Source: Halorientalis regularis (GTDB taxonomy: Archaea; Halobacteriota; Halobacteria; Halobacteriales; Haloarculaceae). Taken from it: a DNA stretch of 64,000 nucleotides. The translations under genes and the position numbers were made by a program. The stretch spans positions 62,001 through 126,000 of the forward strand of contig NZ_JALJCL010000007.1 of NCBI RefSeq assembly GCF_023698535.1, read 5' to 3'. Shown piece by piece: positions 21,752-23,667 of this stretch; positions within the stretch are counted from its first letter, which is position 1; every line of letters begins with the position of its first letter. The notes below the pieces were generated by a model that saw only the letters and a program-made list of their open reading frames with translations, searched no databases and was not told the origin of the DNA.

Positions 21752-22513
21752 ATGGCACCGGACTACGACGTGGAGTTCATCGACCGGGGCGACCGCGAAG
21801 CACGATTCCTCGTACGCGACGCGAGCCCCGCGTTCGCGAACGGGATCCGGCGTGCGATGATCGCCGACGTGCCCACACTCTCCATCGACGAGGTGCGGGT
21901 CATCGAGAACTCGTCGGTGATGTTCGATGAGCAGATCGCGCTCCGGCTCGGGCTGGTCCCGCTGACCACGCCCGAGGACTACGAGATCGGGGAGACGGTC
22001 ACGCTCGCGCTGGACGTCGAGGGACCGGGCACCGCCTACTCGGGCGACCTGGTCAGTACCGACGACCGCGTCGAGCCGGCCGACAAGAACGTCCCGATCA
22101 TCGACCTCAAGGACCCGGAGGGGTCGGAGACCCCCCAGCGCCTGGAGGTCGAGGCCGACGCCGTCCACGACGTTGGCCGTGAACACGCCAAACACCAGGG
22201 CGGCGTGGCGGTCGGCTACCGTCATCTCCAAACTGTGGAGGTCGTCGGTGACGCCGACGAGTACGGCGACGACGACCCCCACATCCTGCGCGGGGTCATC
22301 GAGGAGGACGGCGAGTTGATACCGACCGAGGCGTTCGACCACGACCTGACCCAGCGGTATCCGGGGAAGGAAGTCGAAGTCCACGACGTGCCCAACGCCT
22401 TCGTGTTCCACGTCGAGACCGACGGTTCGATGTCGGTCGACGACCTGGTGATCCAGGCGGTGGACACGGTCCACGGCCGGGCGGGCGAACTCAAAGACGC
22501 GGTACAGCTATAA
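21752..22513 (+). CDS. rpoD: DNA-directed RNA polymerase subunit D (Rpo3)
   Basis: A 253-residue assembly subunit of archaeal RNA polymerase, equivalent to bacterial alpha and eukaryotic Rpb3/AC40. The alpha motif [21 protein letters not shown] spans about residues 29-49. The insertion domain contains none of the four cysteines that hold an Fe-S cluster in some archaea, so this protein should lack the cluster. It is followed by tRNA-Leu. Confidence 0.96.
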
Positions 22514-22587
22514 TGATCGACACTGCCCCTGCACACCGACATGACGCCTCCCGCCCCCTGAAGAGCGGCCGGGCCGACCGGTGGGCA

Positions 22588-22604
22588 ATCGAAAGCGGTT
22601 TGAA
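22588..22604 (+). promoter_or_regulatory. probable tRNA-Leu promoter
   Basis: ATCGAAAGCG (BRE-like, 22588-22597) is followed by TTTGAA (22599-22604). Expected transcription start is about 22628, next to the tRNA 5' end at 22631. The same decamer lies before the L7Ae operon TATA box at 53243, which supports its being a promoter element. Confidence 0.5.
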
Positions 22605-22630
22605 GGGGCAGTCGGAACTGACACGTGCAA

Positions 22631-22715
22631 GCAGGGATAGCCAAGTCAGGCCAACGGCGCAGCGTTCAGGGCGCTGTCCCGTAGGGGTCCGCAGGTTCAA
22701 ATCCTGCTCCCTGCA
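22631..22715 (+). tRNA. tRNA-Leu (CAG)
   Basis: An 85-nt class II tRNA. The acceptor stem is GCAGGGA/TCCCTGC with discriminator A. Anticodon stem CAGCG/CGCTG closes loop TTCAGGG, giving anticodon CAG. A long variable arm and T arm GCAGG-TTCAAAT-CCTGC follow. CCA is not encoded. It sits between rpoD and rpl18e, its usual haloarchaeal position. Confidence 0.95.
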
Positions 22716-22758
22716 TTCTTCGGCTCGCCAGAACCGGCGAGCCGTGAAAGCGAGCAGA
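22694..22758 (+). repeat. 65-nt repeat copy 1: tRNA-Leu 3' end plus hairpin
   Basis: This unit starts inside the T arm of tRNA-Leu and runs past its 3' end through a perfect hairpin, CGGCTCGCC/GGCGAGCCG (22721-22729 with 22736-22744, loop AGAACC), to GAAAGCGAGCAGA. It recurs 102 bp downstream with 58 of 65 bases identical. The hairpin may be a processing or termination signal for the tRNA. Confidence 0.85.
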
Positions 22759-22795
22759 GCAGGTTTGGGCCTCGGGAGGCCGACGGTCTGCCGGT

Positions 22796-22860
22796 GGTTC
22801 AAATCCTGCTCCCTGCATTGTTCGGCTCGTCACGACCGACGAGTCGTAAAAGCGAGCAGA
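22796..22860 (+). repeat. 65-nt repeat copy 2: tRNA-Leu 3' remnant plus hairpin
   Basis: The second copy keeps GGTTCAAATCC and TGCTCCCTGCA of tRNA-Leu but lacks any matching D and anticodon arms, so it is a tRNA 3' remnant, not a tRNA. Its hairpin CGGCTCGTC/GACGAGTCG (22823-22831 with 22838-22846, loop ACGACC) keeps nine pairs despite three stem changes: one C:G pair became T:A and one G:C became G:T. Upstream, GAGCAGG (22757-22763) can pair with CCTGCTC (22805-22811), enclosing a GGCCT-CGGG-AGGCC hairpin. It ends just before the rpl18e ribosome site (GGAGGT). Confidence 0.85.
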
Positions 22861-22882
22861 CACACTTCTTCGGAGGTAGGAT

Positions 22883-23233
22883 ATGAGTAAGACGAACCCG
22901 AGACTCAGTAGTCTCATCGCCGACCTGAAGTCGACCGCCCGGAACTCGGGCGGCGAGGTCTGGGGCGACGTGGCCGATCGGCTGGAGAAGCCGCGAAGCA
23001 CGCACGCCGAAGTCAACCTGGGCCGCATCGAGCGGTACGCCCAGGAAGACGAGACAGTGATCGTGCCCGGGAAAGTCCTGGGCAGCGGCGTCCTGCAGAA
23101 GGACGTCACGGTCGCCGCCGTCGACTTTTCCGGCACGGCCGAGACCAAGATCGACCAGGTAGGCGAGAGCATCACGCTAGAACAGGCACTCGAACGCAAC
23201 CCCGACGGCGGCAACGTACGGGTGATTCGATGA
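22883..23233 (+). CDS. rpl18e: 50S ribosomal protein L18e
   Basis: A 116-residue eL18, starting [20 protein letters not shown], with [26 protein letters not shown] as the core motif. A strong GGAGGT site precedes the ATG, which shows the gene is translated from a leadered transcript starting at or before tRNA-Leu. It overlaps rpl13 by 4 bp (ATGA). Confidence 0.96.
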
Positions 23234-23667
23234 GTATCGCAGAATTCGACGCGGATGTCGTCGTCGAGGCACGTGACTGCATCATGGGCCGGGTCGCCAG
23301 CGAGGTGGCCCAGCGCGCGCTCGACGGCGAGCGCGTGGCCGTGATCAACGCCGAGCAGGCGGTCATCACGGGCAACGCCGAGGACACGATGGAGACGTAC
23401 CGGACGCGCCGCGATCTGGGCTCGGACCGGGGGCCGTACTACCCGAAACAGCCCGACCGCATCTTCAAGCGCGCGATCCGCGGCATGCTGCCGTACAAGA
23501 CGGATCGTGGGCGCGAGGCCTTCGAGAGCGTCCGTGTCTACATCGGCAACCCCCACGACGAGGACGCGGAGGTCGTCGAGGGAACGTCGCTGGATCGACT
23601 CTCGAACATCAACTTCGTCCAGCTGGGCGAGGTCAGCGAAGAACTTGGAGCGAACGTCACATGGTAA
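23230..23667 (+). CDS. rpl13: 50S ribosomal protein L13
   Basis: A 145-residue uL13 with the family motifs [16 protein letters not shown] and [29 protein letters not shown]. It is an early-assembly protein of the large subunit. It overlaps rpl18e by 4 bp and rps9 by 7 bp, showing tight translational coupling. Confidence 0.97.

Follow-up and report, generated by a model that had tools for sequence, protein, structure and literature searches.

Repeat units ending in copies of tRNA 3′ ends form tails behind many haloarchaeal tRNA genes

In Escherichia coli MG1655, the rtT element of tyrT/tyrV consists of 178-bp tandem repeats that lie immediately downstream of tRNA-Tyr. Every repeat closes with a duplicate of the 3′ end of that tRNA, and the element is annotated as encoding the RttR RNA and the Tpr peptide. 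In Haloferax, a tRNA-like element that precedes 5S rRNA is reportedly a substrate of tRNase Z. Holzle 2008 and 2012 are cited for this 5S rRNA-preceding element in PMC7714728. The 3′ ends of tRNA genes also serve as integration targets: the attL/attR sites of archaeal tyrosine recombinases carry a tRNA 3′ end duplicated behind the intact tRNA, and att sites down to 8–13 bp are known (PMC8371274), whereas casposases insert at tRNA-Leu 3′ ends with a duplication of 14 bp, 4 bp of which belong to the tRNA (PMC6977970). Last, haloarchaeal PATEs, which are non-autonomous IS605-like elements, and bacterial REP/BIME are short palindromic non-coding sequences with hairpins that suit single-stranded DNA, and PATEs produce no target duplication (PMC3119063). 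Here we describe tails of short repeat units behind haloarchaeal tRNA genes, starting from a tail that lies between tRNA-Leu(CAG) and rpl18e.

The window, that is, the whole 64,000-nucleotide stretch of Halorientalis regularis DNA that was analysed, contains a 65-nt repeat that a first-pass annotation had noticed at the end of tRNA-Leu and that we confirm: 22694-22758 and 22796-22860 are equal at 58 of 65 bases and start 102 bp apart. The first 22 bases of the repeat, GGTTCAAATCCTGCTCCCTGCA, are identical in both copies and occur at only these two sites in the window. About 80 bp lie between the copies, the natural repeat unit measures 102 bp, and a partial unit that consists of H1b only follows (Table 1). 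The covariation described earlier for the two hairpins, H1 and H1b, likewise holds, as both form 9-bp stems and, relative to H1, one C:G pair of H1b has become T:A and one G:C pair has become G:T. The annotation had further seen GAGCAGG (22757-22763) pair with CCTGCTC (22805-22811) and had likened the segment to an incomplete tRNA; the pairing stands, but the likeness does not, because the 5′ arm, GAGCAGG-TTTGGGCC, is an inverted T-arm copy and 22757-22811 folds as a long rod. Folding of 22757-22860 yielded -60.3 kcal/mol versus -36.2 kcal/mol for shuffles (z -6.8), with 0 of 200 shuffles as stable. The inverted arm is worn and gapped in the window copy and better kept in congeners, where it reads GGATTTGAGCC...GGTTCAAATCC in genome G001 and GCGGATTCGAACC...GGTTCGAATCC in G003. 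We found no second tRNA and no pseudogene cloverleaf with D and anticodon arms in this interval, in which ARAGORN and Rfam call one tRNA.

Table 1 Features of the interval from tRNA-Leu(CAG) to rpl18e in the window
Feature	Position	Strand	Evidence
tRNA-Leu(CAG), host gene of the tail	22631-22715	+	ARAGORN; Rfam RF00005, 47.7 bits
Copied segment, the final 22 nt of the tRNA (G52 to discriminator base)	22694-22715	+	Exact second copy at 22796-22817; 22-nt boundary common to 183 units of many tRNAs
H1 hairpin, 9-bp stem	22721-22744	+	Fold z -3.3; pairing across 7 homologous tails
H2 5′ arm, degenerate inverted copy of the tRNA-Leu T-arm/acceptor 3′ strand	22757-22771	+	Pairs in the fold with the 22-nt copy; arms of relatives better preserved
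H2 core, variable module separating inverted and direct T-arm copies	22772-22795	+	Core type varies among orthologous units sharing H1
Direct 22-nt copy of the tRNA-Leu 3′ end, end of unit	22796-22817	+	Identity 22/22
Complete tail unit, 102 bp	22716-22817	+	Clean presence/absence among congeners: G002, G005 empty; G001, G003, G007 one unit
H1b hairpin, start of a second, incomplete unit	22823-22846	+	Directly 3′ of tRNA-Leu in G004, G006; order H1-H2-H1b also in G143 (other genus)
GGAGG, Shine–Dalgarno-like, of rpl18e	22872-22876	+	Sequence; spacing similar in relatives
rpl18e (ribosomal protein L18e), gene behind the tail	22883-23233	+	ORF; homologue behind tRNA-Leu in surveyed genomes

Two further features adjoin or cross this interval. 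An inverted repeat, ACTGCCCC...GGGGCAGT, lies between rpoD and tRNA-Leu at 22522-22538 and 22596-22612 with a 57-nt loop; both arms are also present in relatives of the genus, and the repeat may serve the tRNA-Leu/ribosomal operon as a promoter or RNA element. Open frames of 125 aa (22513-22890, + strand) and 296 aa (22666-23556, - strand) run through the tRNA and the tail and are almost certainly spurious.

To place the tail among its relatives, we compared the interval 5′ of rpl18e in 131 Haloarculaceae genomes. The tRNA-Leu(CAG) site is empty in 122 of them, a short spacer alone separating tRNA-Leu from the start codon, and the nine genomes with an insert comprise six of the eight Halorientalis genomes, G143 from a second genus, and G144 and G145 from a third. 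Within the genus of the window, G002 and G005 have empty sites. H1, H2 and the 22-nt copy are present in G001, G003, G007, G144 and G145, and the same series followed by H1b in the window genome and G143; G004 and G006 carry an H1b-type hairpin alone, the product that recombination between the two 22-nt copies would leave. The outcome for the second hairpin, on whose conservation the first-pass annotation had let its reading depend, is therefore mixed, with hairpins of the H1/H1b type in 9 of 131 genomes and none in 122. Over the seven homologous tails, 93% of the cells of H1 are paired and two pairs have changed on both sides, and in G144 and G145 the T-arm letters of H2 are replaced while the segment folds all the same. 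In the filled site of G001, the native flank CTTCTCT..GGAGG stands only 3′ of the second (last) copy, and this single flank is the pattern of insertion rather than of tandem duplication of the flank.

A second match in the window's own genome revealed a similar arrangement at tRNA-Asp, and a pattern scan of the genus added tails at Met, Arg, Cys and other tRNAs. The repeat thus belongs to a recurrent family and is not a tRNA-like RNA confined to this operon, one of the three origins proposed earlier, and the stem mismatches given below do not favour a small tRNA-like RNA. In the own genome, the last 22 nt of the tRNA are recopied within 760 nt at 23 of 44 tRNA genes outside a cluster on contig C4, a count that is the sole unselected figure for tails. 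This dense cluster of about 18 tailless tRNA genes (G000:C4:112000-117400; L186), which served as an internal control and is perhaps part of a mobile element, has a copy at 1 of 18 genes, and that copy sits in a neighbouring tRNA. Arrays contain one to five units: Val(TAC) and Ser(CGA), for example, are each followed by five, and Lys(CTT) by three that hardly differ. The number of 22-mers at a locus varies among congeners from 1 to 4 at Lys(CTT) and from 1 to 6 at Val(TAC). Neighbouring units of one array often differ in type (Ser-CGA, Val-TAC); identical tandem units occur at Lys, Leu-GAG and Glu, indicating that simple duplication occurs too.

A tail unit of about 100–160 bp consists, in this order, of H1, an inverted copy of the T-arm of that tRNA, a structured core and, in direct orientation, a second version of the 22 nt with which the tRNA ends. 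Across haloarchaeal families, we gathered 183 distinct units with a median length of 117 bp, which belong to 35 tRNA/anticodon types; many of them came from a pattern that already demanded the inverted T-arm, so that percentages over all 183 are biased. Identity of the copy to the tRNA is 0.84–0.99 over positions 1–22 from the tRNA end and falls to 0.39 at position 23 and, on the other side, to 0.48 at the first downstream base; because candidates had to match at 17 of 22 bases within the segment but faced no such demand outside it, the inner identities are partly selected and the drop at the edges is the informative part. This boundary bears on the proposal that a complete tRNA-Leu gene was duplicated and decayed into the tail. 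The exactly copied 3′ end would suit such a duplicate, but the 22-nt boundary is constant across tRNAs, the units have conserved parts of their own and no tRNA is called within them, and we rejected the proposal as scarcely credible.

The inverted T-arm matches at 11 or more of 12 bases in 99 units, compared with a maximum of 9 in shuffles, and it fits the T-stem of its own tRNA better than those of others (0.59 versus 0.30 and 0.49 versus 0.28 at two positions; Wilcoxon 1e-8 on gapped scores). Beyond the T-stem, the fit to the acceptor strand was little better than for swapped tRNAs in ungapped alignment, which marks the inverted arm as a T-arm copy in general; that of the Leu tail seems longer. 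Several core types, which fold stably, are shared between different tRNAs and between distant families. Orthologous units may keep H1 and differ in the core, as do unit 1 of Val(TAC) in G000 and G003 and unit 2 of Met in G000 and G004, so the core is exchanged independently of H1 and the unit is modular. A search of the cores by eye for kink-turn or H/ACA features established none.

The apices of the hairpins are mostly GNA triloops, and the apex of many cores reads CGARC-GNA-GYGAG. This apex motif is present in 61 of 183 units (about a third) compared with 0.22 in dinucleotide shuffles, is strand-specific (opposite strand in 3 units), and is enriched about 40-fold behind tRNAs, at 40 per 43 kb versus 20 per 916 kb elsewhere. 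In 75 contexts, the central N takes all four bases (A 26, G 21, C 14, T 14), and the pair flanking the apex is Watson–Crick in 73 (G-C 42, A-T 28, C-G 3), the others being one G-T and one C-C. H1 has the form CGARC..GYGAG or the fully paired form CTCRC..GYGAG in 96 of 183 units together (about half), where about 8 are expected. Both the apex motif and the CGARC..GYGAG form of H1, which are typical but not obligatory in the family, are absent from the window copy. The complete unit in the window adjoins a tRNA, ends in a copy of the last 22 nt of that tRNA and has H1 and an inverted T-arm between, and we are highly confident that the window feature belongs to the family, in which it is a small, worn member, a tandem array of one complete and one partial unit.

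Next, we examined how widely the tails are distributed, using the strict pattern GATTYGAACC-N12-42-GGTTCRAATC. Within the order Halobacteriales, 136 of 293 genomes and 56 of 87 genera contain it, and a reversed-pattern control gave 0. Named matches include Haloferax, Haloarcula, Halorubrum, Natrinema, Halobacterium, Natronococcus and Halonotius. A phylum-wide draw found it in 28 of 43 members of the order and in 0 of 204 other genomes. Of the 65 matches at named haloarchaeal loci, 54 lie within 900 nt of a called tRNA that stands on the proper side; several of the others visibly adjoin a tRNA end missed by ARAGORN. Rfam models above the gathering score gave tRNA alone in the window stretch and nine array loci, with no RtT match there, plus one L4-Archaeoglobi ribosomal leader elsewhere in one locus (RF03135, 75 bits, haloarchaeal L159:2562-2658). 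The tail units have no match in collections of phage or plasmid DNA. Viral contigs hold 15 matches to the pattern, none recognised as haloarchaeal or haloviral, and those inspected resemble phage tRNA clusters or near-identical palindromes around one tRNA-like end.

Such palindromes, near-perfect and of the form GATTTGAACC..CCTCTGG..CCAGAGG..GGTTCAAATC, adjoin the tRNA-like end CCATGCCCCGCTA in Bifidobacterium and similar viral contigs (L211, L212, L326, L329, L330, L332, L334, L336, L337, L338) and are probably prophage attachment or inversion sites. A few bacterial tails with inverted and direct 3′-end copies look rtT-like (L262, L268 and L278, at tRNA-Pro, a TTACTCCGACCA-ended tRNA and tRNA-Ser); the look-alikes include tRNA-Pro of a Rhodospirillaceae bacterium, tRNA-Ser of an actinomycete and an alphaproteobacterial array. 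Other bacterial matches to the pattern were set aside as chance or another kind.

An integration scar at a tRNA was the nearest of the three origins proposed by the first-pass annotation, for relatives have empty sites and an exact duplicate of the tRNA 3′ end terminates the insert. What does not hold is a scar of a provirus or plasmid, as units of about 100–160 bp stand behind many different tRNAs across haloarchaea. We consider it very improbable that a provirus, plasmid or casposon once sat at tRNA-Leu and was deleted to about 80 bp, even though duplication of a tRNA 3′ end classically marks attR and tRNA-Leu 3′ ends are casposase targets as well (PMC6977970). The narrow unit size and the architecture are common to 35 tRNA types, and the phage, plasmid and viral-contig searches above speak against such an origin too. 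Unlike tRNA-integrated elements, the tails have neither integrase nor cargo, only about 80–140 bp between repeats (80 bp in the window), at most five tandem units and a host range of 35 tRNA types. Casposon/CRISPR-type integration resembles the tails in its target, the tRNA 3′ end, in target duplication and in array-like growth; however, the tail repeat is 22 nt whereas the casposon duplication of 14 bp overlaps the tRNA by only 4 bp (PMC6977970), and inserts of about 80 bp make units far too small for cas1.

The closest anatomical counterpart is rtT. Like haloarchaeal units, its repeats stand in tandem directly behind a tRNA, are each terminated by a duplicated tRNA 3′ end and contain an inverted copy of the 3′ strand, GGGGAAGGAT, whose 10-nt length was equalled in 3 of 2000 shuffles, and the hairpin-rich core of rtT includes CGAGC-GCCA-GCGAG, the CGARC..GYGAG form of many haloarchaeal H1 hairpins. 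Differences are its single tRNA locus, the longer unit, the near-identical copies, and a copy that begins later in the T-arm and takes in CCA; a GNA apex was not found in rtT. Judged by anatomy, and with no claim of sequence homology, the haloarchaeal tails are a class-wide variant of the rtT kind. A word search of the open-access literature returned no description of the haloarchaeal tails; E. coli offers a similar, isolated case, but the class-wide family appears to be undescribed so far.

Do the units act as RNA? They could be structured tRNA 3′ trailers that tRNase Z cuts at each tRNA-end copy, giving small stable RNAs, or that tune expression of the tRNA or rpl18e. Their stable folds, their position on the sense strand of the tRNA in the path of read-through, a copy that ends precisely at the tRNase Z cut site and the annotation of rtT as giving RttR RNA are all consistent with this. 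The element preceding 5S rRNA is similar in that a helix resembling the tRNA acceptor/T-arm occurs in a haloarchaeal non-tRNA transcript; in the tails, by contrast, the 3′ strand pairs with the inverted copy across the T loop too, leaving no T loop. Stem mismatches in the units, which are few events, comprise 15 G-T and 17 A-C and therefore lack a G-U excess, whereas tRNAs in the same analysis show 29 G-T and 8 A-C, a control informative only in looser settings. From these small numbers, the ratio would argue against selection on an RNA fold. PMC6582339 and PMC11101458 present d(GCGAAGC) as a very stable DNA minihairpin, citing Hirao 1994 and Yoshizawa, and report GNA loops as generally stable in DNA; a GNA triloop with a free N is a DNA motif. 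Given also that units are gained and lost between congeners and missing at tRNA-Leu in 122 of 131 Haloarculaceae, we regard a role as functional RNA as unlikely.

Replication errors alone might also build such tails. Inverted copies and fold-back cores would arise by template switching at the near-palindromic T-arm, multiply through unequal recombination at the 22-nt repeats and retain complementary arms through quasi-palindrome correction, with nothing mobile involved. Identical units in tandem agree with this account, as do complementary arms without G-U excess, and template switching can preserve symmetric palindromes without selection or mobility. We nevertheless find it doubtful that errors suffice, since core types with fixed asymmetric internal sequences and the GNA apex recur behind different tRNAs in distant families, adjacent units in an array frequently belong to different types, as at Ser-CGA and Val-TAC, and the native flank at tRNA-Leu is unduplicated.

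Together, the GNA triloop apices and the missing G-U excess favour amplification at tRNA 3′ ends by way of folded single-stranded DNA. The tails share with PATEs and REP/BIME a short, palindromic, non-coding make-up with hairpins suited to single-stranded DNA, and differ from PATEs in being anchored at tRNA ends with a 22-nt copy. We suggest that recombination or insertion would place new units next to the 3′ end of a tRNA gene, leaving or regenerating the 22-nt end, that the unit would probably be used as folded single-stranded DNA through its GNA-loop hairpins and inverted T-arm, and that homologous recombination between the 22-nt repeats would then expand and contract the arrays. As a whole, this scheme of units added through folded single-stranded DNA and arrays altered by recombination is plausible, and we hold it tentatively. 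Its more specific form, an integron-like system in which a putative recombinase would insert folded single-stranded cassettes at most tRNA 3′ ends, regenerating the 22-nt end and building and shuffling arrays, with E. coli rtT as a bacterial outlier of the same process, is a speculation that we think rather improbable.

About half of the tRNA genes in the window's genome bear tails. These disturb annotation by producing spurious ORFs and false partial tRNAs, and they form variable leaders before the genes behind tRNAs, here a ribosomal protein operon. In the window, the tail lengthens the stretch from tRNA-Leu to rpl18e and probably has no essential role. If the units are RNA, they would represent an overlooked RNA class within haloarchaeal tRNA transcripts. 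If they are inserted as folded DNA, a class-wide process would operate at the spots where viruses and plasmids integrate, and its enzyme can be sought. On either reading, the tyrT repeats of E. coli are no longer a mere curiosity.
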